The notes beneath the pieces were generated by a model. That model saw only the letters and a list, made by a program, of their open reading frames with translations. It made no database searches and was not told the origin of the DNA. A DNA stretch of 64,000 nucleotides from Ectocarpus siliculosus (taxonomy: Eukaryota > Sar > Phaeophyceae > Ectocarpales > Ectocarpaceae), in the NCBI GenBank assembly GCA_000310025.1, contig FN649752.1, positions 735,550-799,549 of the forward strand, written 5' to 3'. Positions 23,916 through 62,755 of the stretch are shown in pieces; positions within the stretch are counted from its first letter, which is position 1, and each line of letters opens with the position of its first letter. Position numbers and translations under genes: made by a program.

Positions 23916-23950
<35 letters not shown>

Positions 23951-31631: not shown

Positions 31632-31755
31632 ATGGTCTTGGGTGGGAGGCTGTCCGTAGCAACCTTGTTGCTGTCGCTTCCGGCGACAGCATCAGGGTTC
31701 CTAATTCCGTCGTTCTGCCGCGGATGCACGGCGCGAGCTTGGTGTTCAGCAGCAG
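31632..31755 (+). other. bipartite plastid-targeting leader exon
   Basis: This first coding exon encodes 41 residues: MVLGGRLSVATLLLSLPATA, then SGFLIPSFCRGCTARAW and a short basic or hydroxylated stretch. In stramenopile plastid proteins a signal peptide is followed by a transit peptide beginning with a conserved Phe (ASAF-type motif); here Phe23 after ATASG fits that role. The leader sits in its own exon, separated by a 783-bp intron from the mature domain. Targeting is inferred. Confidence 0.65.
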
Positions 31756-35674: not shown

Positions 35675-38600
35675 TTACGCCCGGGCTACACGCCTCGACA
35701 CGAAAACCTCCTGCGCTCTCTGCCTTTCTTCTCGTGCCAAAAGTACAACTCTTGCCTCTTCAGCCTCTACCGCCCCGCCTCCTGTTGCCGGTTCTTCGTT
35801 GTCCTCGCCGCCGTTACCGTGGACAGCTTGGCGCAAGACCGCCGCAGCGCGGGCCCTCCTCTCCACCCGTGATCTCTTCCTTGAATCGCGCCCCCGATCG
35901 GGCCTCGTTTTCGTTGACGGTAGCTGCTTGTTTAATCCCGGCGTTGCCACCGCTCGCCTTGCCCTACCTTCTTCGTCCTCATCGTTGTCGCTGGTGGGCC
36001 TTTTACTACTACTGTTGGTCGTCTCAACATCGTCCACCCCCGCGGTGGTCGCTGTTCCGCCGCCGGTCGCCGCTGAGGCGTCCTCGATACGCATGAGGTT
36101 CGCCTGCAGGGTCGCGCGATGGCGTTCGAGGGCGGATACCTCGGAACGTAGAGAGCGTACGAGCTCGTGCGCGTCGGTGGCAGATTGGACGACGTCGTCG
36201 ATGGAAGCGATGGAATGTCCGTGGCCGCCCTGACCGGGCGACATCGTGTTTGTTGTCTGTTCGTGGCGTGAGAACGGCGGTTTCAGGGGGGAGGCGGCGC
36301 ATTTTTGTTTTTTTACGAGAATAAAGAACCACAGCGAACGCAGACGGCAGCGCACGTTATCATTACGCACCTTGTTGTTTCAACGCATTTACATGCAAAA
36401 GCAGACAAACCAATGTCGGTAACACGCCGAGCAACACAGAAACGTATTGTTGTTGGACCTGTCGTAGATACGACGAAGTCAGACACATAAAGGCTGTTTC
36501 GAGGTCGGCATGGAAAAGCAAGCCAGTCTACCCGTGACGTATGCGGCTGCATCGTGTGGTGGTCAAAAACCGGCCGACCCCACCAACATGTGCATTGGTG
36601 GTGTACCTCGACAAGGACTCCTTCCTCCCGCAAGGAGAACCCCCCCCGACTCGCCCCCTCTTCTCCGTGCCTGGCAGCCCCCGCCGAAACATTGGGCGCA
36701 ACGTCGAATTCCGTTCGGCCTGAGGAATGGGGAACACCACCACTTCTCAACGCGGTCTCCAGGCGCTGAACCTCGTGCGACAAGCGGTGAATGTGCGTTC
36801 TAAGGCACCGTGGTGCGTGCGGGGGGAACGGAGGGTTGGAGGTAAGAAGTAAGCGCATGGAGATGAAGCATCGAAATATCGGACAAATGGTGGACATGAG
36901 AGTACCAGCTCCAGAACAAACCAGTCTACAGTAGGCCTACTGGCGAAGTTCCTCTGTTTCTCGCCGGCCAATCATTTTCCTTGGTGGCAGAAATAATCCT
37001 ACCGCGTGCTCGGTTCGGCTCGTGAAGAGCTAAGAGAAATATTTGAACCGCGACCTCCGGCGACGGGAGCCCCAGCATACAGGAGGGTGTTGCCTTTGCC
37101 ACCCGCGCACCGTTCGGTCATATGGTCAGGGTGCGAGACCCATGTACCATAGTACGAGTGAAGCATAACGTCGCGTTCTCGAGAATCGTTCGTCTCCCCC
37201 TTGCCCCATTCGCCCCTTCGAGAGGTAGATCAAGTTTCATGTAAGGTGCACAATAGATCTTCTCTCAACCCGTCTTCGCTCGAGCAGGCTGCAGGAAAGC
37301 TGCTTAATAACCGCAACCGCGTAAAGTTCGGTGAGCTAGCTTGCCGCGACCAGTCATCTGGGGGGTAGCCACCCTCCAGTCACCAACCGCACCTCGCCTC
37401 CTCTCCGGCAGCTGCCATTTGCCTCAACAAAAACTCCCCAGCCTTTCTCCTGGATTCACGCCGCTTTCCACCATCCTTGTGGCGCAAGAGCTGTGGCGCA
37501 CCATCAGTGTGGCCCCCTGTGGACAGAGACGCTAGATCGCTGTATAAGCTCGACAGCCTTGTGCGGGGAGCCGGGTAGGAACAGAGGGAGGTTGTTGTTA
37601 GATCAGCTCGGCCTCAAGCTGCGAGAACGATTACATCGCTCGGTATCAGGTAGGGATTGGACAAGCGACGTTGACTGCCTGTTGTGGCAAAGGATGCGCT
37701 TGTCGAAGGACTTGCGCTGATTATAAATATGTCACGCGAATCGAAGCCGAGCAACAAAGTTCGTACTTCCACGATGCTCGTGTGTGTCATCTAGAAAGAC
37801 ATGTCCCGCACACTTCAACGTTCAGAAATAGTGTGATTGTGAAGTGAACCAACCTGCGATCTCTTTCGTCGAGCATGTTGAGCAGTATCGCCGCGAGCTT
37901 CTTTCCTTCGTTGGTAGAAGCTCTTGGTTCCGATCCCTCTTCTCCTTGGAGCACATTTGTTAGCCTGAAATAGAGGGATAAGCACATTGAAATGAATGCA
38001 CAAGAGATTACAGGTGGGGTAGAATCAGTAGTTCAACAAGCGTTCCATACGACGAGCACGCCACGCACCATTTAGTTGTCTGCGATGGCATGCTCACAGC
38101 GAAGGGAAATAAACTAGTTTGTCCCAAGGGTATGTAGTCACCGCAGACCGGAAGCAGCGCACACCTCACTTGTTGAGAGCAAGAGACGCCGAGCAACACA
38201 AGCAGAGAAGCAACCACACGACAAAACCCACCGGCGTTGCATCGCTTCACACCGGACACGCCACTGCTCAGACTCCACTCTTGCGCGTTTTAAGTCTCGT
38301 CCTTTGCTGGCCACGTAAGCTCTTAGACGACGGGCACCCTCGCCCTAGAGGTTGGGAGAGACCGAAGCCGGGGAACAACGTAGGGGTTCTGGTTTGGTGA
38401 GATTCGCGTGGACGACCAACTAAGAAGGAATCTGTATCTCGAATCATCACTATTTGCTGTAAGTGCAAGATCTCACGTTTCGACGAAAGACGACTCCCCC
38501 GGTTGTGCTTGCGTTTTGTGTATGGTGTCGGTCTCGTACGCAACACGGAAAGAACGTGCACCTAAAACTGAGACGCTCTACAAAACAATGCGTCAACACA

Positions 38601-39023
38601 AACAAGGCTGAAACCAAGATCGGACAACGTCTTCCCGTTGCAAGCCAACAATTATTTTGAATGCACCGTTCTGGAACACACCTGCAGCGCGACCATCCCG
38701 ATCCCGCCTGTCCCTTCTCCCAGAAACACCTCCGGTTCGTGCCCCGTTGTTTCCCGCTTTTCTTCCTCGTGCTCGCCCACATGCCCGCCTCCCGCATGAT
38801 TAGAATGTCTCACTGACGCCTTTCGAGCCCTCCGCTTGCTGCCCACGGCAAGGCCGGCTATGCTGTCGAGTTGTTCGCCGAGGTCTGCGTCAGCTTGAGC
38901 GAGCTGCAGGCGGACGGCGCGGGTTTCTTTCTCCCGCTTGAGGACGGCGTTTGCCCAGTCGTCTTGGAGAAGGATGGCGAGGGCGCGCGTCTTTTTGTCG
39001 AGTTCTCGTGCATGCCTCGCTGC
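35675..39023 (-). CDS. C-terminal coiled-coil exons of the FRxW repeat protein
   Basis: Four exons: 39023-38680 (AARHARELDKKTRALAILLQ, then LKREKETRAVRLQLAQADAD), 37964-37854 (GKKLAAILLNMLDERDRR), 36799-36607 (HIHRLSHEVQRLETALRSGG) and 36256-35675 (DDVVQSATDAHELVRSLRSE, then VSALERHRATLQANLMRIED, then a basic, disordered tail to the stop). Heptad-like spacing predicts coiled coils. Phases agree for the last three joints. The joint 39023 exon to 37964 exon works only if the donor is CAGGT|GTGTTC rather than CAG|GTGTGT, or if a small exon is missed in 37965-38679. A separate downstream gene is possible. Confidence 0.58.
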
Positions 39024-42000
39024 CTGCGCGTGAAATGTGCGAAAGAATGGGGGTGGAAGTATTCTGCTAGAGTCTGGTCGGAAGTTGATCGATCCTCCAC
39101 GAACAAAGTCAACACGTCAAGGCAAACAAGAGACAGAAGAAGCGATGGTGGCATCAGCCACACGTGCGGCTGTCGTGTGCTCGTACAAGAACCGTCGCGT
39201 TGGCCACAATTTTTTTTTATGTGCTCCAGCGACGGAGCCATGACCGTAGTACCGACTGAAACACCCAAACGTACGAACCCCGCGTCTGAATAGCACAAGT
39301 TGGTGGAATAGAAGTATTTCTGGTGGCCACGTATATTCGACCACGGTATGTGCCGCAAACGTTTATCGATCGCATTAAAGAAACACACCCATGACCGCCG
39401 GGACGCCTGAATACGGCGCAAACTGTGGTCTATTCCGGCGTGCACCAAAAATTGTATTTGAAACTTAATCGCAACTCAACAGTAGAGCAAATCGTGGCGT
39501 GGGTGGCACTAACGTAGCACTCCTGACCACGAACGTTGCAGGAACGAGCGCAAGGAAGCGGTTCGATAGTTCAACGACTTTGGCGCGCCAACTGTTCTTT
39601 ACTTTAATCCCTGTGATCAATGTCCAGAATGAGCAGTGCTTTTCAGGTGGCTCAACGGGGGTTGCCTCTCACCAACCCCTGCAGACGCCGTAGCTGACGC
39701 TCTCGCGCTACCTCCTCCGTATCCTTGACCTTGAGCTTCAGCTCAGATGCCAATTCCAGCCCACGAGCGGCCTCCCGCTGTGCTTTCTCTCGTGCCTCAG
39801 CAACCTCCACGCTGGCGGCGGCCGCCTTTTTCCAAGCCTCAGCCTTGTCGGCGGCCGCTTTCGCCTCCTTCTCCATCGCCTCAGCTCGGGCAGCCCTAGC
39901 CGCAGCGGTAGCGCCGGCGGCCGCCCCCTCGGCGGCAGACAGCGATGCGGCGTGCAGACAGAGACGGCTCCACCCTCGGAACACGAGGGCCCTGCCTCTC
40001 TCATGGCACACGCGAGCAACCTAAAGGGAAAAGTGTCTTTAAGGCTGGTGCCAATAGCATAGTCGTGGATACGCAAAGTTCTTCATGTTGCTTAAAATAC
40101 AACATTGGATCAACATCTGGCTTCCTAGGCTGAGATCGGTTGACCGACATATCTGTGCGTCTCACCAGCATCTTCAGACGGTGTAGTTGATGCTCCCGCG
40201 CCATCTTCCCTGCTTTCTCCCGTGCCTCAGCAACCTCCACGCTGGCGGCGGCCGCCTTTTTCCATGCCTCAGCCTTGTCGGCGGCTACTTTCGCCTCCTT
40301 CTCCATCGCCTCAGCTCGGGCAGCCCTAGCCGCAGCTGTAGCGGCGGCGGCACCCCCCTCGGCAGCAGACAGCGATGCGGCGTGCAGGCACAGCCGGCTC
40401 CAACCGCGGAACATGAGGGCCTTGTCACTCTCGCCACACACTCGAATTATCTTGGCAGGCAACGATGGGAGAAGGCGTAACGTGGGGTGGGACGGAAGGC
40501 AGTACTCGTTAGGTGCAGTGGGCTAAAGAAAAAACCTTTCCTCACTTGAGACACGGTACCGGTTCATGGCTTCCGGCAGTGTGTTTGTCTCAACCACCGG
40601 CAGTATGTTTGTCTCACCACCATATCGATATGGTGCTATACAAATCGGAGGGATTGGTCACAAGGCGATGTTCTCACCAGCATCTTTATTCGTCGTAGCT
40701 GGTGTTCTCGCACTACCTCCTCCGTGTCCTTGACCTTCAGCTGTAGCTCAGACGCCAATTCTGAACCACGAGAAGTTTCCCGTTGCGCCTGCTCCGTCGC
40801 CGCGGCCACCTCTGCGCTCGCCGCGGCCGCTCTCCTCGACGCCTCAGCCTTGTCGGCGGCCGCTTTCGCTTCCTTCTCCATCGCCTCAGCTCGGGCAGCT
40901 CTGGCCGCAGCGGTGGCGGCGGCGGCGGCCCCCTCGGTCGCAGACAGCGATGCGGCGTGCAGGCAGAGACGGCTCCACCCTCGAAACATGAGGGCCCTGT
41001 CTCTGTCGCCGCAGAAACGGATAACCTTGACGGTACGGATACAATGAATGGCGCCGGAGGGTGGGGTAGGGGAAGTCAGCCCGTGCACTACACAGCGAGA
41101 CCACGTACGCTGTAACTGTGAGCATCAGATATCGTTTCGATAGTAGGACGACTCCAACCGGCAAGGAGCCCTCTTTCCATGCACCCGCCCCACCAAAATG
41201 GAATGGATAGAGTACCCACAAGCGGTAGTTCCACTGGGGTTGCCTCTCACCAACATCTTCAGGCGATGTAGTTGACGATCTCGCACTGCTTCCTCCGTGT
41301 CTTTCACCTTGAGCTTCAGCTCAGCAGCCAATACCGACCCACGGGCGGCCTCCCGTTGGGCTCTCTCTCGTGCCTCGGCAACCTCCACGCTGGCGGCGGC
41401 CGCTCTCCTCCACGCCTCAGCCTTGTCGGCGGCCGCTTCCGCCTCCTTCTCCATCGCCTCAGCTCGGGCAGCCCTAGCCGCAGCGGTGGCGGCGGCGGAG
41501 GCTCCCTCGGCGGCAGACAGCGATGCGGCGTGCAGGCAGAGACGGCTCCACCCTCGGAACATGAGGGCCCTGTCCCTCTCGCCGCACACGCGAGAGGTCT
41601 TGATTGGCAGCAGCGACAAGGAGGGGAATGTGGCGATAGTGAGAGCGGTGAGAGGAAACACAGGCGAGGCTTGCATGCCTGGATAATGTCGAGAGTACGA
41701 CGTACGAGATTCATATACCTCTCGTCCCTACTCTCTATTTTCAACTGAAATATGCCCCGTATGCCGCAGAGTTGTCCAGTGGAGGCTGTCTCTCACCAGC
41801 ATCTTCAGACGGTGGAGCTGATGCTCTCGCACTTCCTCCTCCGTGTCTTTGACCTTGAGCTGTAGCTCAGACGCCAATTCCGACCCACGGGCGGCCTCCC
41901 GTTGTGCTTTCTCTCGTGCCTCGGCAACCTCCGCACTGGCGGCGGCCGCTCTCCTCCACGCCTCAGCCTTGTCGGCGGCTGCTTTCGCCTCCTTCTCCAT

Positions 42001-45000
42001 CGCCTCAGCTCGGGCAGCCCTAGCCGCAGCGGTGGCGGCGGCGGCGGCCCCCTCGGCGGCAGACAGCGATGCGGCGTGCAGGCAGAGACGGCTCCACCCT
42101 CGGAACATGAGGGCCCTGTCTCTCTCGCACACGCGAGCGATCTTGATAATCAGCAACGATTAGGAAGGAAGTGCGGCGATAGTGAGAGCGATGAGAGGAA
42201 GCACAGGCGAGGCGAGAACGTCTGGCTAACGGCAAGAGTAGTATACGATGCGCGAGACGTGAGAGGCCTCTCAATACTGTCTACTGGATTATTCTGCGTA
42301 CCACGCCGTAGAGTTGTCCAGCGGAGGCTGTCTCTCACCAGCATCTTCAGGCGATGTAGTTGATGCTCTCGCGCTACCTCCTCCGTATCCTTGACCTTGA
42401 GCTGCAGCTCAGATGCCAATTCCGACCCACGGGCGGCCTCCCGTTGTGCTTTCTCTCGTGCCTCGGCAACCTCCACGCTGGCGGCGGCCGCTCTCCTCCA
42501 AGCCTCAGCCTTGTCGGCGGCCGCTTTCGCCTCCTTCTCCATCGCCTCAGCTCGAGCAGCCCTAGCCGCAGCGGTGGCGGCGGCGGAGGCCCCCTCGGCG
42601 GCAGACAGCGATGCGGCGTGCAGACAGAGACGGCTCCACCCTCGGAACACGAGGGCTCTGTCACTCTCGCCGCACACGCGAGTGATCTTGATAATCAACA
42701 ACGATTAGGACGGGAGTGTGGCGACAGCAGTGAGAGCGGTGAGGGGAAGCACAGGCGAGGCTTGCACATCTAGATAAAGGTGAGAATAGATACGACGTAC
42801 GAGACTCAGAGACTCCTCGTTCACCTCTACTGTATACTCGAAATATGCCACGTACGCCGCAGAGTTGTCCAGTGGAGGCTGTCTCTCACCAGCATCTTCA
42901 GACGGTGGAGCTGATGCTCTCGCACTACCTCCTCCGTGTCTTTGACCTTGAGCTGTAGTTCAGATGCCAATTCCGACCCACGGGCGGCCTCCCGTTGTGC
43001 TTTCTCTCGTGCTTCGGCAACCTCCACGCTGGCGGCGGCCGCTCTCCTCCAAGCCTCAGCCTTGTCGGCGGCCGCTTTCGCTTCCTTCTCCATCGCCTCA
43101 GCTCGAGCAGCCCTAGCCGCAGCGGTGGCGGCGGCGGAGGCCCCCTCGGCGGCAGACAGCGATGCGGCGTGGAGACAGAGACGGCTCCACCCTCGGAACT
43201 TGAGGGCCCTGTCACTCTCGCCGCACACGCGAGAGATCTTGATATGTAGCATCGATTGGGAAGGAAGTGCGGCGATAACGAGCGCGGTGAGGGGAAGCAC
43301 AGGCGAGGATTGCACATCTGGCCAAATGGCGAGTGTAGTATACGATGTAGGGGACCCACAGGCCCCTCGCCCATCTCTACTATTGCCTACTCAAATATGC
43401 CAGGCATGCCCTGGGGTTTCCAGTGGAGGCTGTCTCTCACCAGCATCTTCAGACGGCGTAGCTGATGCTGTCGCAAGGCCTCCTCCGTGTCTTTGACCTT
43501 GAGCTGTAGCTTAGATGCCAATTCCGACCCACGGGCGGCCTCCCGCTGTGCTTTCTCTCGTGCCTCGGCAACCTCCGCGCTGGCGGCGGCCGCTTCCGCC
43601 TCCTTCTCCATCGCCTCAGCTCGGGCAGCCCTAGCCGCAGCGGTGGCGGCGGCGGAGACCCCCTCGGCGGCAGACAGCGATGCGGCGTGCAGGCAGAGAC
43701 GGCTCCACCCTCGGAACATGAGGGCCCTGTCACTCTCGCCGCACACGCGAGTGATCTTGATAATCAACAACGATTAGGACGGGAGTGTGGCGACAGCAGT
43801 GAGAGCGGTGAGAGGAAACACAGGCGAGGTTTGTGTATCTGGTTTGTGTATCTGGCCAACGGTGGGGACGTGCAGTATACGATTACGAGACTTGAAGGCC
43901 TCTCATTTACTGCCTACTGAATATGCCACGTACGCCGCAGAGTTGTCCAGTGGAGGCTGTCTCTCACCAGCATCTTCAGACGGTGGAGCTGATGCTCTCG
44001 CATTGCTTCCTCCGTGCCTTTGACCTTGAGCTGCAGCTCAGATGCCAATTCCGACCCACGGGCGGCCTCCCTTTGTGCTTTCTCTCGTGCCTCGGCAACC
44101 TCCGCGCTGGCGGCGGCCGCTCTCCTCCAAGCCTCAGCCTTGTCGGCGGCCGCTTTCGCTTCCTTCTCCATCGCCTCAGCTCGAGCAGCCCTAGCCGCAG
44201 CGGTGGCGGCGGCGGAGCCCCCCTCGGCGGCAGACAGCGATGCGGCGTGCAGGCAGAGACGGCTCCACCCTCGGAACACGAGGGCCCTGTCCCTCTCGCC
44301 GCACACGCGAGCGATCTTGATTTTCAGCAACGATTAGGACGGGAGTGTGGCGACAGCAGTGAGAGCGGTGAGGGGAAGCACTGACGAGAATTGTGTATCT
44401 GACCATCGGCGAGACGTATACGATACACGAGACTTGAAGACCTCTCAATACTGTATACTCGAAATATGCTGCGTATGCCGCAGAGTCGTCCAGTGGAGGC
44501 TGTCTCTCACCAGCATCTTCAGACGGCGTAGCTGATGCTCTCGCACTACCTCCTCCGTGTCTTTGACCTTGAGCTGTAGCTCAGACGCCAATTCCGACCT
44601 ACGAGCGGTCTCCCGTTGTGCTTTCTCTCGTGCTTCGGCAACCTCCACGCTGGCGGCGGCCGCTCTCCTCCAAGCCTCAGCCTTGTCGGCGGCCGCTTTC
44701 GCTTCCTTCTCCATCGCCTCAGCTCGGGCGCTCCTGGCCGTAGCTGTGGCGGCGGCGGCGGCCCCCTCGGCGGCAGACAGCGATGCGGCGTGCAGGCAAA
44801 GCCGGCTCCAACCGCGGAACATGAGGGCCCTGTCACTCTCGTCGCACACTCGGATTATCTTGGCATGCAGTAATGGGAAAATACGTAGCGTGTGGGGGGA
44901 GTGATGAGCACAAAGGTCGAGGGGGCTTGTGTATGCAGTTGGCAGTGAGAGTACAACGTGCAAAACAATAGACGAGACGAGAAACACCACTCTACACTGC

Positions 45001-51000: not shown

Positions 51001-54000
51001 AGTGGGACCGAGCATGTGTGTAAGAGTTTTTGGCACCACTCTACCATACCCCGTCGTACGCGTATATCACACAAAGGCCGACTGACGGCACCGTGCGTTA
51101 GCGAAAATCCACTTCTCCTGCATGGTTTCGACGTCGTAGGAGAGACATGCACCGCGCTCCGATAGACCCAGCTGCCATGGTGATGGAGAAAGCGAACTGG
51201 GTTGCCAGCCCAACCACACTTACCATATGCAGTGCCCTCCGCTCCCTCTGGTCTCTCGCTTCCGACTCCGCCGCTGCCACGCGTTGCCGAACCACGGCGG
51301 CGTCTGTCTCGATTCCGGCGGCCGTTGCAGCTGCAGCGGCCTGCGTCGCTTCCGCCTCCGCTCTGGCGGCCCTCGCCGCTGCGGTGGCCGTCGCCGATAC
51401 GGCATCGGCGGCGTTGAGAGACGCGGCGTGCAAGCACAACCGGCTCCACCCTCGGAACAGCAAGCGCCTGTCTTTGTCCTTGGAAACTCGGAGCATCTGG
51501 GCGTGGAAGCAACGAGAGCAAGGCGGCGTGGTCCGCATGACGTGCGGGTGCAGCGTGGTCCGAGTCCACAACGTTCTTCACTGAGGTTGTCAATGGTTGT
51601 TTTTATAAGGCAATGGTTGTTTTTCTATGGCATCCGTGTGATAACAACATATCCAATAGACACCGGCTCTCGTGATGGGAACCGACGCGTTCCACTCTTG
51701 TCCGAGGCATGTTGTCTCCGCATACCACCAGCGACCATGGATGGAGTGCCAAAGACAACCTCTCACAGGAGTTGAGCTATATACTCAAGCGTGCGCTTGG
51801 CGGGGGTGTGCTCTACAAACCGATTGCAGTGCCAATCGAGCTATGAGCTGAGCCATTCCACGTTCCAAGGCCCCAAGCTTGGATGGTGTCTCACCGTGGT
51901 CATCGCCCTATGCCGCTGCAGCTCCTGCCCCTGCTCACGGCTCCGCCCAGTCGACACTTCCGCTTCGATCGCGTCGGTCGACGAAGCTGCCGCTGCGGTC
52001 CTCTTTTCCTCGGGCTCCACCCTCGCCGTCCTTACAACTGATGCTGCCGTTGCAGGTGCCCTCTCCGCCGCGGCGAGTGAGGCGGCGTCCGAACGGAGGC
52101 GACCCCAGCTGCGGAATAGGAAGCAGCGGATTCTATCGCCGAGCACTCTAGTAACCTGGCAGTGTCGGAGGGGAGTGAACGTACGGGATGTGTCATGGTG
52201 TGAAAGGACACGTGTATCTACCACCGGCATCCTAGGGTTAGGTTGGTTCGGGAACTGTAGGCGCGTTTGTCCTGACAAGGTGTCGCAGTAGGTATACGAC
52301 GACGAATGGAGGCGACCATGTCCTTGCTGTGCAATCTACAGGAACTGCACGAGACTATACCCGGGTGATATCACGACATCAGGCCCTGCTCCAATTGTCT
52401 CGTGAAAACCATTCTGACCTTTTTTGCGGATATTCTTTTTTCCACGTATCAAACCAAGGTATGATATACCATCCATAATCGACGGCGAGCCCAAACGATT
52501 GTGCCAGACGAACGGTTTGCGAAAGTAAAGAGTAAGGGTCCCGATACTATATTGAGTTGCGACAACAACCGTCGGTCATTCAACCAAGAAGCACTCAGCG
52601 TTCTTTTTACACAGAACCTGCGATGTGCTGCTCCTTTAGAGGCAGAGCTGCGTGAAGCTAATATTCCACACGACGAACGGTGTCTCCGGGAGCTCTGTTG
52701 TCTGTTGACCTAGCAGTGCCTGAAAGGGGAAGTTCTGCAATCGTCCATCGCCTATCGGGTGTTTCTGTGAAGGCCGACAACATTGGAGCCTCGTGGCCAG
52801 GACTCTACCCATCTGCGTCTAGACGGTTGCTCAACCCATGCAAGCGTATGCTCACCATTCGAGCGGCTAGCTGTCGTCTTTGGTCATCGACCGCCTTTTC
52901 AGCTTCCTCTGCTCTCTTCACAAAGGTCGCCGCCATCACCGACTCCCCGTCGAGCTTTTCCACTCCCTTGGCTCCTTCCGCAGGTTTGGCAGATGCATGT
53001 ACCTGCTTCTCCATGGCATCCGCCCTAGCGGCTTGAGCTGCTGCAGGCTCGGCATCTGACGAAATTCCATCTGCGCCGCCTTTTCCTGCAGCGTGTCGGC
53101 AGAGCCTACTCCAACCATGGAAAAGAAGCCGTCTGTTGTAGCCCCGACCTGCGCTGCAGATCTGCAGTTGGGCCACGATAGGAACACGCGCTCAACGTGA
53201 GACTGATGGACACGATGGGTGAGGTAGGACAACAGCGCCGCTACACCACCGCCACCGCCACTTCATCGATGGGCGTGAGATATTTGACACCACTCTACCG
53301 TACCCCGTCGTAGGTGTAGAATACACAAAAGGCTGACTGATGGCATATTCCGCTAGCGAAAGCCCACTTCTCCTGCATGGTTTCGACGTGGGGGAATAAC
53401 GTGCACCGTCCTTCCATAGACCCAGCTGCCATGGTGATGGAGAAAGCGAACTGGGATGCCAGACCAACCACACTTACCATATGCAGTGCCCTCCGATCCC
53501 TCTGGTCTCTCGCTTCTGACTCCGCCGCTGCCACGCGTTGCCGAACCACGGCGGCGTCTGTCTCGATTCCGGCGGCCGTTGCAGCTGCAGCGGCTGCCGT
53601 GGCTTCCGCCTCCGCTCTGGCGGCCCTCGCCGCTGCGGTGGCCGTCGCCGATACGGCATCGGCGGCGTTGAGAGACGCGGCGTGCAAGCACAACCGGCTC
53701 CACCCTCGGAACAGCAAGCGCCTGTCTTTGTCCTTGGAGACTCGAGATATCTGAGCGTAGAAGCGGCGAGAGCAAGACGTCACGGCCCGCAAGGAGTACG
53801 GTTGCGGCGTGGGCCCAGGTCCGTAACGTTCTTTGCTGAGGCTCAATGGATGCATTCCTTGGGCATCCGTGTGATGTCGACTCATACCCCAGCAACATAT
53901 CGGAATAGACGACGGCTCGCGTGACCTCTCGTGATGGTAGCCGACGCGGTCCATGCCATAATATCCGAGGCCCTATGACCTCAGGTTGCTCCGAATACAA

Positions 54001-57000
54001 GCGAATATGGATGGAGTGTCAACCACCCTGCTGTCATAAATAGTGTTTTCCTCAAAGGGTTTCGCTAGATAATCTAATGGAACTATCACGCTGACTTCGT
54101 TTCTCCCAAACGCTTGCAATCGTTGTTTGAACGTTGCAGCTTGGCTTGAGACGATTCGTTTTGTTCGCACAGGGGCCGATACGACATGGATAGTCCTCAA
54201 CCACGATCGTGTCACCCGATGAACTAACTGCCCAGGGTACCCAACGAGTTACATTTTATTTTCTTGAAACTGAGGCAAATGGCTTAAGCACACGCTGGGC
54301 GGGCATGCGCCCTAAGAAACAAGCTGCTGTTCCTATCTAGCTATGAGCCGTGTGGGCTTCTACTTCTACTTCACATACCCCAAGTGGATGATGTCTCACC
54401 GTGGTCAATGCCCTATGCCGCTGAAGCCCCTGCTCCTCCTCACGTCTCCGCTCAGTCGACCCTTCCGCTTCGACAGCGTCGGTCGACGAAGCTGCTGCTG
54501 CGGTCTCCTTTTCTTGGACCTCCACCCTCGCCGCCCTTGCAGCTGGTGTTGCCGCTGTAGATGCTCCCTCCACCGCGTCGAGCGAGGCGGCATGCAAGCA
54601 CAAGCGACCCCAGCTGCGGAATAAGAGGCGCCGATTTCTATCTCCGAGCACTCTAGCAACCTAGAAGGCCGGGAGGCGTGTGAAAGTATCGAGTATGTTC
54701 AGCCAAAGGACGATCCGCATCTACCATCGTCGTCCCGCAGCGGATCGTAGACTACAGGTCTGAAACAGTAGGTACGTTCTCGCTCACGGGGTGCGCCACA
54801 ATGGTTTCACGATGACAACGGGAGGTAAAATCGGCTTGTTATACTACGTTCAGGGTGTTCTTCAAGATCCAAATCCGGACCTTGTCCTGATCTAGAGGCC
54901 AGCTATCTATCTCTGCTACCATTGTTGTGGTTGCCGTGTGCACGTTGGCAGCTGTTCTGGCATATTCCCTCTACCTTATCTCCTGTAGTTACGTATTCGG
55001 TGTATCACCTGTGAGAGTGCATATGGATTTGCGAGGACGTTTGAAACGCCTCGAAAAATACAACGCGGAGGATGCCCGAAACGCCTCAAAAAATACAACG
55101 TGGTGGATGCTTCAAGGTGGACAAAGCTTCCAGGAACTGCCTATGCACCAGTTTCGGCCTTGCGCATGGCGTTCTACTGACTCCGTCACATAATCCTGAC
55201 ACTTTTGGCATGTCGTTCAAGCTACGACACAACGCATCAGGAGCACCTTCGCAAACGCGTGCCGGATTCCGCCTTCACCGACACTGCCTCATGCTCTTGT
55301 AGAGGCAGAGCTGTTTGGTACTACACGGTAGAGGACGGCGCCTCCTCTGAATTTCGCTGCTGGTCTAGGGCGAAATCTACGGACCTCGTCGCCTTTCAGA
55401 TATTATTGTAACGGCCGACGTCACCGAAGCGTCACCGTCAGGGTTCAACGATATCCCCCCGAGTCCCACCTGGCCAGCAAACTCTTTAGATTAATTCATT
55501 CAAGGACATGCTCACCAATCGAGCGGCTAGCTGTCGTTTTTGGTTGTCGACAGCCTTTTCAGCTTCCTGTGCTCTTTTCACAAGGGTCGTCGCCATCACC
55601 GAGTCCCCGTCGACCTTTTCCGATGCCTTGGCATGTTCTGCAGGTGAGTGTGTCGGCTTCTCCATGACATCCGGCCTGGCTATCGCTTCCGCGGCCGTCG
55701 ATGACCCCTCGGCGATGTGGACAGACGTCGCTTGTCGGCAGAGCCGACTCCAACCGTGGAAGAGAAGGCGTCTGTTGTAGTCCCGACCCGCGCTGCAGAT
55801 CTGCGGCCGGGCCAACATTTGAAACAAACACTCAACGTGATATTCATGGGTACGATGGAATGGGATCCAGTCGATTGGTGGTGAACAGAGTGAAGGCGAT
55901 GCCAGCCCAACCACACTTACCATATGCAGTGCCCTCCGCTCCCTCTGGTCTCTCGCTTCCGACTCCGCCGCTGCCACGCGTTGTCGAACCACGGCGGCGT
56001 CTGTCTCGATTCCGGCGGCCGTTGCGGCTGCAGCGGCCTGCGTCGCTTCCGCCTCCGCTCTGGCGGCCCTCGCCGCTGCGGTGGCCGTCGCCGATACGGC
56101 ATCGGCGGCGTTGAGAGACGCGGCGTGCAAGCAGAGCCGGCTCCACCCTCGGAACAGCAAGCGTCTGTCTTTGTCCTTGGAAACTCGGAGCATCTGGGCG
56201 TGGAAGCAACGAGAGCAAGACAGCGTGGTCCGCATGACGTGCGGGTGCAGCATAGTCCGAGTCCACAACGTTCTTCACTGAGGTTGTCAATGGTTGTTTT
56301 TCTTGGTCATCCGTGTGATAGTAACATATCTCAACAACATATCGGAATAGACGACAGCTCGCGTCGACCCGGTCCATGGGGTATATTCGAAGCCTCTCAA
56401 ACTCTTGCACGCGTAAATCGGACGTCTTGGCTTGGATTGAGGGTGTTCGCTAGGTTCAAACACGCCGGATAACTCCCAACGTCATTACCTTCGATGTGCC
56501 GCCCAGGTTACCCAAACATTTGCATGCTGTTTGAGAAACCGACATAAACTTTTCGACCGTGTGCTGGGCGGGGGGGGTGTTCTACAAACCAGGTTGTACT
56601 TCCTATTGTATAGTCGGTGCGGATTGTTAGAAGCAAATATTGGAGATGGTGAGACATCCTGAGGCGACCGGTGGTCCCGCCTGCGTCTTGCGGTCGTTCT
56701 TTTGAACATCGACCTAAACCCACGTTGTGTTGAGACTCAACCACCGCTTACGCCATTCCAATAGCATGTGCTGGAGCATGCCGAACAAGCAGCCTCAAGC
56801 GCTGGAAATAACGGCAATTCGGAAACGCACGCCAGAATACCCGTCATCGCGCTTACGCGTAGCCCCCACTACCCTAGAGCCAGTGGTAACTCCAACGTAG
56901 CGCTCAGGCTTCGTGTAATCCAATCTCCTGTGCGCATGATCTCATCCACCGCCGTACCCACGAGAAACTGATTCCCCAAGCCCCCTACTCCAGTTGAGCA

Positions 57001-60000
57001 ACTTCTACGTTTACATGCCCCAAGCGGGTGGTGTCTCACCGTGGTTGTTGCCCTCAGCCGTTTCGGCTCTTGCTCCTCCTCACGGCTCCGCTCGGTCGAC
57101 GATTTTGCTTCGATCGCGTCGGTCGACGAAGCTGCCGCTGCGGTCCTCATTTCCTTGGCCTCCACCCTCGCCGCCCTCACAGCTGGCGTTGCGGCTGCAG
57201 ATGCCCCCTCCACCGCGTTGAGCGAGGCGGCGTGCGAACACAGGCGACCCCAGCTGCGGAAGAGGAGACGGCGGTTCCTATCCCGGAGCACTCTAGCAAC
57301 CTGGCCGTGTGGGAGAGGCGTGAAAGTACAAAAGAACATGCCATGTTGGAAGTCAGCACACAACGTGTATCAATCATCAATATCCACCTCTTTTTGCAAC
57401 TATTATTGTCGCTGCGTTGACGTTTTCAACCGTTCTGGCCTTTTGCCCAGTCCTTGCTGGTACACACCTCACTGGTGAGGATGAATAGCTGTTGTCGAAA
57501 GTGAGCCCAAACTCTTCAGGCAGACCAAACGTTTGTGAAAGTGTTGGGAATAATTGCAACACGAGTCCAGTCTGACTACGAGGGTCTCGCTAGAGCTCTT
57601 CGTGCATGTCATATCGTTTCTAGGGCGCAGGTCGAGCATACGAACGTCTTAAAAGAAAACGTGTGATTCGTCTGCCGTGAACATGGCTGTCAGCCAGTGT
57701 TTGAATGCTGGTCTAGGCCTTCTGCATGGGTGTCTCTGCCGTCTCTCTACGCATGCCTGAACGTTTGACAAATCCTTCAGGATAGCAACAAGTCCGACAG
57801 AAGCGCCTTCAAACCCTTGCGACATTCGTTCTACAGAAACAATGCGACGTCCTCCTGCAGAGACCGATCTGTGAAAGCTAGTACACGACTCGGTAGCGGC
57901 GCCTCGCTAGAACATGGCTGCTGACCTAATCCCGCATGTAAGAGAAAAATCTACAAATTTCCACCATCTCTCAAGTGTTGCTGTTCCAGCGAACGTCACT
58001 GAAGATTCGCTGTCAGGACTCTCAAGACACCTGAGCTTGGGGCGGTTGCTCATGCTACCGTGTACTCACCATTCGAACGGTCTGTTGTCGTCTTTGCTCG
58101 TCGACTGCCTTTTCAGCTTCCTCTGCTCTCTTTTCAAGATCCGCCGCTACCATCGAATCCTCGTGGCCCTTTTCCGATACCTTAGCTCGTTCTGCAGGTG
58201 TTGGTGCCTGCTTCTCAACTGCATCCGCCTTGGCCACGCGAGCCGCTTCCGCCGCAGCAGCTGAGACGTCGTCTATGGCACCCACGGAGGCAGCGTGTAG
58301 GCAGAGCCGGCTCCAAGAGCGGAATAGAGACCTCCTGTCTCTATCGCCGCATACGCGTGTTATCTGAAACACGTCCCCACATATTTTAGGTATGCGTACA
58401 ATGGGTGTTTCACGGAAAAGGAAATGGTTATTTTCAGGCAAAATAGTGGGAACCATCGACGGAGCGCCATCGAACCAATGTCTCTGAATCTGTGTGTCAC
58501 CGCGTACGCGGAAAACTGACGTGTATGGTGAGAGCAGGGGTGAACAGCGGTGATGTCCGCTGTGCGTGTAAACAATGTGACCCCACTTCACTTCAAGTCT
58601 TCGACAGACAATTTACCCCAGAGTACACGTAATACTCATGCTGCTCACGCAAAGTGATTTTTCTTTCCACCTCACTCGCCGCAGTGGACGGCAGTTCTTA
58701 CCAAGATCTTTATCCACCGAAGCTGATGCTCTCGTAATATCGCCTCCATGTCTGTGATCTTGTGCTGTAGCTTAGCCACCGAGTTTGACCCTCGAGCCGT
58801 CTCCCGTCGCGCCTGTTCCCTCGCTGCCGCCACATTCTCGATTTCATCTTCCGCTCTCCTCGATACCTCAGTCTTATCTGTGGCCTCTTCAGTCTCCATT
58901 TCCATCGCCGTCGATCGGGTGGCCCTGGCCGCAGAGGTGGTGGCGGCGGAGGCTCCCTCGGCGGCAGATGCAGCGTGCAGGCAAAGACGGCTCCAACCGC
59001 GAAACAAGAGAGCCCTGTCTCTCTCACCGCACACGCGAGTGATCTTGACGGTCGGATACATTGAATACAGGGCCGGGACGTAGGGAGGGGGTAGTCGGCC
59101 ACAGCAACTTGCGTACAAGTTGGCACTAACACTTTGTGTATCTTCGTTGCGAATACGACCACTAGACAGTTCCATTATTCGAGTATTTCTACGAGTTCAG
59201 CGGTGAATGGCCCTCTTGCTGATTTTCTGTCCCGCCAATATTGGATATCCAGAGGACTGTACAGATTTCGCAACAGGTGTTCTCACCAATCCTTTCACCC
59301 GGCGTAGCTGGTGCTCTTGCACTGTTTGCTCTATCTTTTTGACCTTCAGCTCCAGGTCGGCCATCAACTTTGACCCGAAAGCAGTTTCCCGTGGTGAAGC
59401 GGCGGCCGCTTCCGCCTCCTTCTGGGCTGCATCAGCTCGGGCGGCCCTGGCCACAGCAGTGGCAGCGGCGGATGCCCCCTCGGCAGCAGAGAGCGATGCG
59501 GCGTGAAGGCAGAGACGGCTCCACCCCCGAAACATGAGGGATCGATTCCTCTCTCGACACATGCGCGTGATCTAGGCAGTTGTGGGAAAAAATCGGGGGT
59601 TGTAGCGGGGGAAAGTGAGCTGGTATCTGAAGCGTGCCTGAGCACCAACATTCATCGTACGGCCTTTTCCCGCTGTTGCACAGCTACAGACTTTCCCAGA
59701 TCGGATGGATGTGCTCACCAATCGCTTCATCCGTTCGAGGCGATGTTCCCACTCCCTTGGCACCTTCCCTGGCGTTTCCACCAAAGCAGTACTACCGGCT
59801 GCCGCTCCTGTCTCTTCCTCCATCGCCCGGCCTCGGGCACTGTCGGCCATAACTGCGGCGGCGGCAGCCCCCTCAGCCGTGGACAGCGTTGCAGCGTGCA
59901 GGTACAGTCGGTTCCAACCGCAGAACATGGAGGCCCTGTCTCGTTCACGGCATACGCGGGTGATCTTGACACGCAAGAAGGACCAGGAGGGGGATGTGGG

Positions 60001-62755
60001 GTGGGATGAAGTGGTAGGCAGCAACATGGGCGAGGCTTGCACATGCGGCTAACAGTGAGGGTGCGACGAGCGAGGCTGACGGGCCAGACGAGGAACGCCC
60101 CTTCTCTTCTACGCACAGAGTCATCCTAAACTCGGCTGAAATGTGTCATATACGTGATAGAGTTTTCCAGTGGAGGCTGCGTCTCACCAGCATCTTCGTT
60201 CGGCGTAGCTGATGCTCTCGCGCCCCATCTTCAGTGTCTTTGATGGTGCGATGGTGCTCAGCCGCCAACACACTGGCGGCTTCCCGCTGCGCGTGCTCCC
60301 TTGCAATGGCAACCTCCGCACTGACGTTGGCCGCTCTGCTAGGATTCTCAACCGTTTCGGTAGCCTCCTCTGCCTCTTTCTCCATCACCTCAGGTCGTGC
60401 AGCCCTAACCGCAGCTGTGGCGACGGCGGAGGTCCCTTCGGCAGTAGACAGCGACGCGGCGAGGCAAAGGCGGCTCCAACCGCGGAAAATTAAGCGCTTT
60501 GCTCTGTCCCGGCAAACGCGGCCCATCTGAGAAAGACGGACAACATGCGAGTGGCAGCAGGGTCTATGGACGAAGTTGCTTCGTTTCGAAACGAACCACA
60601 TCGCGAATCCAACTAAGAACATGAACCAGACAAAACGTCAGCGGTGAGCTGCATCGCCCAGTTGCCGAATTGGTAGCGGTAGGTTTCACATGGCACTTGT
60701 GTGTACCACTCGGCCGTGTAGCATAAATACCGCCACAAGACTCGAACTTAGCATGCTGATTCGGACAAAACTGGCTGCACATATGCACACATGCCTACTA
60801 GACAACCGTAACTCGAAAACGTCTCACAATTTTCACCCCTTGCTCCTGTCGACCTATCTCATTGTCGTTTCTCTGCCGTTGGACTGTGTGTTCAAGAGCA
60901 GAATCTCGAGTGACTTTGCTCATCTCGCTCTCGGTATCCCCGGGGCCTGAAGCTGTGGACCGCGTGGTCGTCGCCGAACGAATACCCCCCCCCGTGGAAA
61001 CACGCCACAAACGGACCCATGCCCTTGTCAAAGCTTCCCTTGTGCGCTCCCTCGTGACGCGAACAACCTGGGTGGAGGTTTCGAGGTGGGCATGCTTCAA
61101 GTTTTATCCCCAGAAATAGCAAAAATATTGCCAAAGGAAAACGCTGATTCTCTCTCGGTGTCGCCTGTCGCCTGTTCTGCACTTGGTGGGTTTAATTCCA
61201 GAAAGCGATGGCGACCTGATCTACAGCTCTTCGACTCTACACAATCCCGGTACGCACGACCCAGCAGAATAGTTTCTCTCTCTCGTTTGTCTCACCAATC
61301 GTCGTAGGATGTTCTGCCTAAGCGACCCCCCTCTAGGAGTCCCGCTTGCATTTTTTGAATCATTGAGGGATGCAGAGTATCCAACGGCGGCGCCGTGCGA
61401 AGGGGCGGAAGCGAGGGCCTGGAGTTGAAGTTTTTCCCTCTCGGCGTGTATGTTGGACACCTCAAGGTATGACAGGTGCCCGGCCAAGACTTGGTTTAAC
61501 CGACGCATGTGATCGGAGGTCAGCCGCCGCTCGTGATCCAAGTCGTGTTGCTGCTGCCCTGTGAGAAAGTACTGCCAAGTGAAAGTGATCATGGGACAGG
61601 ACCAACGCAAACGAATGAGTCAGGCTGCTGGCAGTGGAGCGAAGGGTGAAACTGAGCAAGTTATATTTCTACGACGGTGGTTGGAAATGTGCGAGCAGGT
61701 AGAACACCTCCTACAGCAGTTTTTACATTTTTACAGTACACGCTAACGAGTCACTCAGGTACGTACAGACACCAAGAGGCAGACTTGTCCAATTGCAACC
61801 AGCTCACCTCTCTGATCACCCCTATCGCTGGGAGTGGGCCGGAAGGTATGAGAGGTGGTGCGGGTAGCCCACCGGAAGACACTTCGCTGACAATAGAGGC
61901 AGATTCGCCAAGACCACTGCTTCGTACCGTCTCGCTGCCACTCACGCTCAGATCGTCTCCGTTTGTATGTATCCCACCCCCACGGCTGCCGTAGTCGCTC
62001 CCATTCCCACGGCTTTCAGTTTCTCCGCCAAATCTTTCGCCGCCCCTTGAAAATCCGCTAAACGATGCCGCATCCCCGATCCCCGTCGACATCCGCCGGC
62101 TCGATCCCGATACCCTTGGAACACCACGGTACTCTCGTGGCGAGCGGGTTGTTGCTCCTCCTCGTTGCGATGAATAATGCGCAGGGCTTGGTTGAGAAGC
62201 TTCCCACTCAGTTTCCTCTCCACCAGCGCTTTGATCACGGAACAGCGGCCAGCTACTGTTGAGACGGTCCTGGTGCGATGGCCTCCGCTCTTGAGAAGGG
62301 TGCCCGTCTGTCGCGGCGTTCCTCGGGCGTTGGCGAATTGTGTCTCTGCCTCCTGTAACCTCCAACGGTGGAGCAACACCAACGACGACGTTGTCACCAT
62401 ACCGGATGAATTCCTTATCTGCCGTCTGGTCCTCACCTTCGCACGGCAGCAGGTCTGAGCTTCTCCGCGACTCGCTCAAAGGCGTGAGCCTTCCCGCATC
62501 GCGCATCGACGACGATGACCGTTGCTGCCGGCTACTCCGGTCGAGAAAGCCGCCACCTCCACTTGATGCGTCTGTCGCTGGTGGAGACAAATCGACGCTG
62601 TCTAGCGCCGCACTGCTAGAATACTGGCTACTGGCGTGTTCCGGTGGCCCCTGGGTCGAGAAGGACAGCATGCTGCCGAACGCTGACCCTTGCTCGCGTG
62701 CACTGCTGCCATGTTCGGGCGAGGACAGGGAATCAGCCGATACATCTGAATCCAT
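35675..62755 (-). CDS. giant FRxW-motif repeat / coiled-coil protein gene (about 37 exons)
   Basis: The gene has two N-terminal exons (62755-61808, 61553-61296), 31 repeat exons (61067 down to 39673) and four C-terminal exons (39023-38680, 37964-37854, 36799-36607, 36256-35675, stop). Every repeat exon is phase 0-0, giving about 3,900 residues. Each repeat begins (I/V)xRVCxxRxRxLxFRxWxR, with Trp at residue 17 in 30 of 31 exons (residue 16 in 42141-41797), followed by LCxHAASL and an Ala/Glu/Arg-rich helix. A Phe-x-x-Trp motif in a helix resembles centrin-binding Sfi1-type repeats, but the spacing (77-116 residues) is much longer, so a centrosomal or cytoskeletal scaffold role is only a guess. 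No signal peptide is visible. Joining the C-terminal exons requires a less usual donor at 38680 (see findings). It could be two genes rather than one. Confidence 0.68.
39673..45425 (-). repeat. homogeneous tandem exon block (class A, 11 copies)
   Basis: Eleven exons, mostly 348 bp (116 codons): 45425-45078, 44858-44511, 44315-43968, 43755-43441 (105 codons), 43237-42890, 42686-42339, 42141-41797 (115), 41598-41251, 41025-40678, 40450-40166 (95), 40020-39673. Unit spacing is about 545 bp. Each has the Trp motif (ALMFRGWSRLCLHAASLSAA), then AARAEAMEKEAKAAADKAEA and EVAEAREKAQREAARGSELA, and ends REHQLRRLKML before GTGAGA. Exons and the roughly 200-bp introns are highly similar, indicating recent expansion or gene conversion. 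The short copies have clean in-frame deletions in the helical part. Confidence 0.9.
48241..49191 (-). other. intron with scar of a lost class C exon
   Basis: This 951-bp interval separates D (49464-49192) from B (48240-47977), where the period-3 order predicts a C exon. Around 48,880 the DNA passes directly from sequence like that found left of other C exons (GGCTGTGTGGTGGTC) to sequence like that found right of them (TTGAAAC, CTCAACGTGAGA, GGCGGGGTCGG). The exon itself is absent. I see no other coding signal in the interval. Confidence 0.6.
49465..50591 (-). other. intron where a class B exon is missing
   Basis: This 1127-bp interval lies between C (50888-50592) and D (49464-49192), where a B exon is expected. 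Shared intron landmarks are present, such as CTGCCCAGGATACCCAACGA at 49907-49926 (compare about 54229-54248) and the GTATATACTAA stretch near 50,050, but no RSWGRL-coding segment lies between them. No other gene is seen. Confidence 0.5.
58702..61067 (-). repeat. diverged 5' repeat exons (class A-like)
   Basis: Five exons read 5' to 3' as 61067-60837 (77 codons), 60526-60188 (113), 59964-59719 (82), 59571-59287 (95) and 59043-58702 (114). They share the Trp-17 motif: EALTRAWVRLW, RLIFRGWSRLC, ASMFCGWNRLY, SLMFRGWSRLC, ALLFRGWSRLC. The first is the most diverged member of the whole set and retains little beyond the motif. Lengths vary through in-frame loss of parts of the Ala-rich helix. Low similarity suggests these are the oldest copies. 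Confidence 0.75.
61296..62755 (-). CDS. N-terminal exons of the FRxW repeat protein
   Basis: The first coding exon (62755-61808, 316 codons) starts MDSDVSADSLSSPEHGSS and is Ser/Gly/Arg-rich and disordered. An in-frame TAG lies just upstream, supporting this ATG. The donor is GAG|GTGAGC, phase 0. The second exon (61553-61296, 86 codons) is helical: HERRLTSDHMRRLNQVLAGH then LEVSNIHAEREKLQLQAL, ending RQNILRRL|GTGAGA. Its acceptor region has CAG-GG-CAG-CAG in tandem; starts at 61553 or 61550 keep phase 0 with exon 1, while the most upstream CAG does not. Confidence 0.68.

Follow-up and report, generated by a model that had tools for sequence, protein, structure and literature searches.

A giant exon-duplicated gene of Ectocarpus siliculosus that may encode a helical scaffold with repeated EF-hand docking helices

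We examined a 64,000-nucleotide stretch of the genome of the brown alga Ectocarpus siliculosus (contig FN649752.1, positions 735,550 to 799,549; hereafter the window, whose own numbering is used throughout) and describe a giant gene on its minus strand with 31 repeat exons between 61067 and 39673, of 80-116 residues apiece and 3,105 residues in total. Judging from the sequence, our leading though tentative reading is that it may encode an exon-duplicated, largely helical scaffold with about 31 docking helices for a small EF-hand protein, centrin-type proteins being the likeliest partners. The helical repeat scaffold had been put forward in the original prediction, and it is supported by the presence of one motif per exon, by purifying selection and by the predicted helix. 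On our models it appears well supported for the 3' block, the last 11 repeat exons, and likely for the remaining exons; the binding of a partner, fibre formation, a response to calcium and a location in the cell are what we infer beyond it.

All 31 repeat exons have a length that is a multiple of three, contain no stop, are bounded by an AG acceptor and a GT donor, and begin and end in phase 0, which bears out the earlier description of 31 minus-strand exons with splice sites and with ends between codons. Thirty of them, from 60526 to 39673 on the minus strand, carry F-x-[GS]-W, with an AG exactly 39 nucleotides upstream of the Phe codon and an in-phase GT donor; in exon 42141-41797 the AG lies only 36 nucleotides ahead of the Phe codon, one codon being missing. 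The 31st is a diverged copy at 61067-60828 that has Trp at residue 17 and Thr replacing Phe at residue 14. A loose search for the motif gave 35 matches on the minus strand, 30 of which are repeat exons, and 7 on the plus strand. When splice sites were scored with matrices derived from the very sites scored, the donor of exon 45882-45628 (GTGAAG) was weak (2.8 vs. 5.8-9.7 in the other 30 exons) and the acceptor of exon 58363 was low (-0.1 vs. 2.8-9.3 in the remaining exons). We rejected an artefact or a pseudogene because the 3,105 codons contain no stop and the ratio of nonsynonymous to synonymous divergence (dN/dS) is well below 1.

The motif has a fixed place in the exons. Thirty of the 31 have Trp at residue 17, as originally predicted, and the other (exon 42141-41797) has it at residue 16. 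Relative to this Trp, Leu at +3 and Lys or Arg at -7 are present in 31/31 exons, Arg at +2 and Phe at -3 in 30/31, and Cys at +4, His at +6 and Ala at +7 in 27/31 each; the residue at +1 is Ser, Gly, Val or Asn, and that at -6 Arg, Ala, Glu, Ser or Cys, in every exon. The core that is invariant across all 31 is W-x-x-L, and not the F-R-x-W that had been proposed together with the fixed position. The most diverged exon (61067-60828) keeps Trp, Arg at +2 and Leu at +3, has Trp at +4 and has lost the Phe at -3. Motif-to-motif spacing in spliced order was 80-116 residues, in agreement with the upper but not the lower value of the 77-116 given previously. Nine of the 11 exons in the 3' block have a second Trp at residue 62 or 63, within AEAWRRAAA or a similar stretch.

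In a tree built from the 31 exons, types A, B and C each formed a cluster of their own (support 0.97-1.00). Tree and intron likeness together show a middle block in which the three types recur in the order C-A-B, with an additional A and a closing C, and a 3' block made up of 11 units that resemble one another (exons of 348 nucleotides in most cases, introns of about 200). Since the introns of like exons are themselves alike, duplication probably copied exons along with their introns. All of the exons are phase 0-0, and therefore any of them can be gained or skipped in frame. Two minus-strand introns, 55801-55920 (120 nucleotides) and 44859-45077 (219 nucleotides), are multiples of three with no in-frame stop, so their retention would also preserve the frame.

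The exon copies are under purifying selection. Within groups, dN/dS was 0.25 for the 3' block (55 pairs), 0.26 for type A (10 pairs), 0.47 for type B (6), 0.46 for type C (10) and 0.32 for four 5' exons (6), and the motif part (residues 1-36) was tighter than the rest within types B and C and the 5' exons. Comparisons between groups gave 0.07-0.23 for residues 1-36 (7 of 10 comparisons estimable) and 0.39-0.42 for the rest (4 of 10), values that are rough because synonymous divergence approaches or exceeds saturation (dS 0.75-4.65 for residues 1-36). Among six neighbouring units of the 3' block, divergence (K) was 0.29 in introns, 0.117 at fourfold sites and 0.041 at second codon positions. 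Given that fourfold sites (0.117) diverge less than introns (0.291), there may be exchange between exon copies, and the selection estimates would therefore be less clean.

The repeats are rich in Ala (25%), Arg (13%) and Glu (10%), and only 28 of the 3,105 residues are prolines, none of them before residue 24 of any exon and none in the last 11 exons. Structure was modelled for 2 of the 31 exons. The alignments used in this work differ slightly in content: one holds the diverged exon 61067-60828 minus its last codon, one omits that exon (30/31), and one holds 19 of the 31 exons. With a 31-row alignment, AlphaFold predicted exon 44858-44511 to be one helix spanning residues 2-115 (mean predicted local distance difference test score, pLDDT, 89.4). 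An alpha-helix rises 0.15 nm per residue, and the 1,243 residues of the 3' block would extend about 0.19 micrometre if wholly helical. Hydrophobic moments along two 3' units ranged from 0.17 to 1.26, with no steady amphipathic face.

The motif was compared with a panel of 15 centrin-binding sequences (16 anchors) from Table 2 of PMC8622359, Trp aligned on Trp; a first test took 13 of the 15, omitting transducin and the Trp-less yeast Sfi1 repeat 18, and was repeated with all 15. The background consisted of 524 Trp windows from open frames of at least 200 codons, a few of them possibly spurious, in three stretches of E. coli K-12. The centrin-binding site of yeast Kar1 stood out in this panel, with a median score of 16 that was reached by 0/524 E. 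coli windows and by 14/20,000 column shuffles, and it was the best of the 13 peptides for 29 of the 31 exons. The second Trp of the repeats, which served as an internal control (nine from the 3' block and one more late Trp, n=10), gave a Kar1 median of -10. In a free ungapped alignment against 22 EF-hand ligands, seven calmodulin-type helices having been added, Kar1 was first, with Trp on Trp in 29/31 exons; its score was reached by 1/524 windows and by 3/1,500 shuffles, these taking 11 of the 31 rows. The repeats share R-x-L-[LI]-x-x-x-W-x-R-L-x-x-H with Kar1, including the contact positions Trp, +3 and +4; the Kar1-centrin contacts are W248, L251 and L252, together with the electrostatics of the basic peptide (PMC8622359). 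However, that source lists a single 19-residue Kar1 peptide vs. about 31 copies here, position +4 is Cys in 27/31 exons and not the Leu of Kar1, and the comparison covers only the motif. The pattern of centrin targets with Trp at position 1 and a hydrophobic residue at position 4 is present in either direction (Trp and Leu at +3 in 31/31, Phe at -3 in 30/31), and a forward triad in which Ala and Cys are allowed occurs in 28/31 exons vs. 0.162 of the background. On sequence, then, the motif has the look of an EF-hand ligand and stands closer to the targets of centrin than to those of calmodulin. A calmodulin-binding peptide ranks second, so both proteins are candidate partners.

Several results weigh against a centrin-docking scaffold. 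The large residue of position 8 is missing (Ala in 27/31), and the strict triad was found in 1/31 exons forward and 0/31 in reverse; position 8 is less conserved in centrin targets, and Kar1 as listed has Asp at W+7, though a 1-4-8 triad is ascribed to it (PMC8622359). The likeness to Kar1 is that of a short motif, and after correction for the panel its score was reached by 160/20,000 shuffles (about 0.008), or by 37/1,500 (about 0.025) in the free alignment; when the best of 13 peptides is chosen, 5/524 background windows (0.0095) reach the repeat median of 16. These figures come from 31 repeats that are copies of each other, hence non-independent, and from null windows that are bacterial. 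The exons starting at 55800, 52155, 61067 and 45425 score only 4-6 at best of the panel. Residues 1-36 are less constrained than the rest of the exon in the 3' block (dN/dS 0.31 vs. 0.22) and in type A (0.38 vs. 0.17). For the type C exon 57300-57040, modelled from a 19-row alignment, moderate confidence is reached only around the motif (pLDDT blocks of 74, 79 and 67, then 48-55 beyond), and a continuous helix therefore lacks support there. Finally, a search of the PDB with a 35-residue motif profile (30/31 exons) returned only six peroxidase chains at expectation values (E) of 0.27-1.1; we take these light-chain matches to be chance, and they show that unrelated proteins can bear a similar stretch.

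It also counts against this reading that no relative was found in Pfam, in the PDB or in the viral contigs of IMG/VR and the prokaryotic contigs of GTDB. The Pfam scan gave no convincing match (best E 0.0062, DUF3450, one exon), which agrees with the earlier remark that no named family is known with such a spacing of this motif; exons were scanned singly and not as a spliced protein, and the HMMER filters drop most weak matches. The 11 Pfam families matched by the 31 exons at E <= 10 include neither Sfi1 nor IQ models, and LRR, TPR, ROC-COR and NB-ARC are absent from the matches of the exons and of two flanking pieces. The PDB had no match for the full-repeat profile or for two single motifs. 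Pattern stretches were found in IMG/VR viral contigs (23 and 13 in two scans) and in GTDB prokaryotic contigs (26), none of which was confirmed as a relative in a confirming step that uses the first alignment sequence alone. A literature search over titles and abstract openings, with subscription papers mostly outside its scope, found no paper on this gene.

Kinship with Sfi1, raised in the original prediction, was not supported. The Sfi1-repeat proteins of yeast, human, Toxoplasma and Tetrahymena, and PtCenBP1 of Paramecium, do have many Trp-anchored helices, each an EF-hand site (PMC9406199, PMC5112337, PMC6189993), as we infer for the repeats; Trp17 and Phe14 fall at the residue numbers of Sfi1 triad positions 1 and 4 (PMC9406199), and the long alpha-helix of that family has a counterpart in helix 2-115 of the 3'-block exon, the spacer helix of type C being of low confidence. 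However, the Sfi1 consensus is A-x7-L-L-x3-[FL]-x2-W-[KR] at a spacing of 33 in yeast (PMC5112337), and LL, [FL], W and [KR] occur jointly in 0/31 exons, the LL itself is lacking, no Lys or Arg follows the Trp in any of them, and the spacing is 80-116, about 100. Sfi1 position 10 is expected to be large and hydrophobic (PMC9406199); at triad residues 17/14/10 the repeats have Trp in 31/31 and Phe in 30/31, but a hydrophobic residue at W-7 in 0/31, where triad position 8 is instead basic (Arg or Lys) in 31/31, and the strict reverse triad occurs in 0/31. Two human and two yeast Sfi1 peptides scored at shuffle level (observed value reached by 2,646 to 14,595 of 20,000), and no Sfi1 model of Pfam matched any of the 31 singly scanned exons. 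On the basic position 10, the residue after Trp, the spacing, the profile result and the peptides we rejected Sfi1 membership. A true, very divergent member with stretched spacing is very unlikely, and likeness to Sfi1 is only loosely supported even as a working principle. Kar1 has a closer competitor in calmodulin or another myosin-light-chain-like EF-hand protein as the partner of the same scaffold, a reading that we consider unlikely. The peptide by which the plasma-membrane Ca2+ pump binds calmodulin, whose sequence agrees with 2kne and 1cff, was second of the 22 ligands (median 25; 10/524 windows, 29/1,500 shuffles), aligned on L-x-F-R-G-x-x-R within a shared L-x-F-R-G-x-x-R-[IL] stretch, and a myosin V IQ helix was third (37/524 and 68/1,500). 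However, Kar1 outscored the pump peptide on both nulls, the Trp of the pump lies one residue before its Phe and that of the repeats three after, and five further calmodulin peptides (two MLCK, CaMKK, CaMKII and eNOS) were at chance level. The IQ consensus is [IL]Q-x3-RG-x3-[RK]; we rejected an IQ motif, as the expected Gln position, W-6, has none in 31/31 exons and no IQ model appeared among their Pfam matches.

The repeats could also form a structural rod, either a coiled coil or a single helix, that assembles with itself through the Trp motif, knob into neighbouring helix, and has no small partner. The abundance of Ala, Arg and Glu, the scarcity of proline, the predicted helix and a spacer no less constrained than the motif in the 3' block and type A would all suit such a rod, but exon lengths of 80-116 have no fixed value modulo 7, unlike a regular register, and in comparisons between groups the spacer is less constrained than the compact, basic, aromatic stretch, which also resembles EF-hand ligands; we regard such a rod as improbable. 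We give hardly any weight to a rapidly shuffled recognition or immune-type gene like the ROCO and NB-TPR genes of brown algae. The gene shares their genomic style of tandem symmetric exons with one repeat each (PMC11378527), here with introns alike between copies. However, the LRR exons of ROCO genes are 72 bp long, in phase 2 and with positively selected sites (PMC11378527), vs. 240-348 bp, phase 0 and another motif here, where selection is overall purifying and not diversifying and the exons have no LRR or TPR match in Pfam. Amphipathic helices that bind membranes or lipid droplets are just as hard to credit: Ala-rich helices with Trp, Phe and Arg would be in keeping with them, but Trp and Leu at +3 are strictly conserved by position and the two 3' units analysed have no steady amphipathic face.

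The ends of the gene are less clear than its repeats (Table 1). At the 5' end, an ATG exon (62755-61808) comes first, followed by a likely second exon that stops at 61296 and then by the repeats; both of these leading exons end in phase 0. The originally proposed span of 35675-62755 fits at its upper end. Downstream of the repeats, exon 39023-38682 is common to all 5 listed model paths, and the top-scoring path terminates at the stop at 35675. However, this route from 39673 is merely the best among several modelled paths, and the 3' limit at 35675 is therefore not confirmed; the last open frame could belong to another gene, and the small exons before it are uncertain. Between the repeat block and this frame, at 36584-38682 on the minus strand, lie several short open, helical-looking stretches whose joining is uncertain.

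Table 1. Repeat exons of the giant gene and candidate exons at its two ends, in order of transcription (positions in the window).
Feature	Position	Strand	Basis
Candidate first coding exon, ATG to donor GTGAGC, 316 residues, Ser/Gly-rich, ends in phase 0	61808..62755	-	Open frame and donor; Pfam scan of 61807-62755 without match
Candidate second exon, donor GTGAGAC, no Trp motif, acceptor unsettled among 5 listed	61296..61553	-	Donor
Repeat exon 1, diverged (W17, L20, T14 for F)	60828..61067	-	Register and phase; profile match E 0.035
Repeat exon 2	60188..60526	-	Motif, splice sites, phase
Repeat exon 3	59719..59964	-	Motif, splice sites, phase
Repeat exon 4	59287..59571	-	Motif, splice sites, phase
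Repeat exon 5	58702..59043	-	Motif, splice sites, phase
Repeat exon 6, B-like, low acceptor score	58070..58363	-	Motif, phase, tree
Repeat exon 7, type C	57040..57300	-	Motif, phase, tree
Repeat exon 8, type A	55921..56193	-	Motif, phase, tree
Repeat exon 9, type B	55516..55800	-	Motif, phase, tree
Repeat exon 10, type C	54400..54660	-	Motif, phase, tree
Repeat exon 11, type A	53478..53750	-	Motif, phase, tree
Repeat exon 12, type B	52856..53161	-	Motif, phase, tree
Repeat exon 13, type C	51895..52155	-	Motif, phase, tree
Repeat exon 14, type A; protein identical to exon 8 (56193-55921)	51224..51496	-	Motif, phase, tree
Repeat exon 15, type B	50592..50888	-	Motif, phase, tree
Repeat exon 16, type A	49192..49464	-	Motif, phase, tree
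Repeat exon 17, type C	47977..48240	-	Motif, phase, tree
Repeat exon 18, type A	47259..47531	-	Motif, phase, tree
Repeat exon 19, type B	46762..47046	-	Motif, phase, tree
Repeat exon 20, type C, weak donor GTGAAG	45628..45882	-	Motif, phase, splice scores
Repeat exon 21, opens the 3' block (11 exons, proline-free)	45078..45425	-	Motif, phase, composition
Repeat exon 22, predicted single helix 2-115	44511..44858	-	Phase, structure prediction
Repeat exon 23	43968..44315	-	Motif, splice sites, phase
Repeat exon 24	43441..43755	-	Motif, splice sites, phase
Repeat exon 25	42890..43237	-	Motif, splice sites, phase
Repeat exon 26	42339..42686	-	Motif, splice sites, phase
Repeat exon 27, W16, one codon shorter ahead of motif	41797..42141	-	Motif, splice sites, phase
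Repeat exon 28	41251..41598	-	Motif, splice sites, phase
Repeat exon 29	40678..41025	-	Motif, splice sites, phase
Repeat exon 30	40166..40450	-	Motif, splice sites, phase
Repeat exon 31	39673..40020	-	Motif, splice sites, phase
Likely downstream exon, no Trp motif, phase 0 at its start	38682..39023	-	In all 5 listed model paths
Possible last exon (stop 35675) or separate gene (in-frame ATG 36244)	35675..36229	-	Top model path; Pfam matches in 35675-36370 all below cut-off

Other features were noted in the window. A second giant repeat-exon gene lies on the opposite strand at 390-14940 (+), where pattern searches located the heads of 11 exons, following CAG, and the tails of three (ATCGAG, then GTGAG); its repeats are acidic and rich in Ala, Val, Glu, Ser and Pro, the located exon ends likewise fall between codons, and the two pieces scanned had no Pfam match. 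At 23419-23991 (-) there is a fragment of a Rab-GTPase TBC domain (E 3.2e-05, 24.1 bits vs. a Pfam cut-off of 25.2). A possible multi-exon gene at 31600-34250 (+) has a weak TPR stretch (E 0.12) and a hydrophobic leader-like stretch, LLSLPATASGF, which resembles secondary-plastid targeting sequences and thereby hints weakly at a stramenopile alga.

Returning to the proposed centrin-docking scaffold, the docking helix would comprise about residues 7-28 of each exon, anchored chiefly by Trp17, next to which Leu20 and Cys21 would lie as +3 and +4 do next to Trp in the Kar1-centrin pair; Arg10, Arg15 and Arg19 would be basic partners for an acidic protein, and the Ala/Glu/Arg-rich remainder of each exon would act as a spacer. 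About 31 sites would then lie 12-17 nm apart if the protein is helical, and their loading with a centrin-like protein could give a long fibre whose stiffness or length responds to calcium. A model of this kind, in which many centrins line one extended binding protein and shorten it on calcium, has been described for centrin fibres (PMC6189993), and giant scaffolds with many sites for centrin or spasmin in the myonemes of contractile protists (PMC12661445) are similar by description only. Most centrin repeat scaffolds named in the literature consulted are Sfi1-type proteins, with POC5 and spaconnectin among the exceptions. More doubtfully, the gene may represent an undescribed family of giant calcium-responsive scaffolds with centrin docking helices of the Kar1 and not the Sfi1 type at intervals of ~100 residues, all derived from one duplicated symmetric exon. 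The proline-free 11-unit 3' block would then form a stiff rod at most 0.19 micrometre long, with the 5' units as looser tethers, and the fibre could be set to different lengths, always in frame, by skipping any of the phase-0 exons.

Fibres based on centrin are present in flagellar roots and contractile myonemes. By analogy, and as a guess, the protein might be placed in flagellar roots or in the links between basal bodies. If the proposal is true, a different docking helix and a threefold wider spacing would suggest that such fibres arose more than once. The gene is also a clean example of how a giant protein can grow when single exons are duplicated, since such exons can be gained or skipped without a frameshift.

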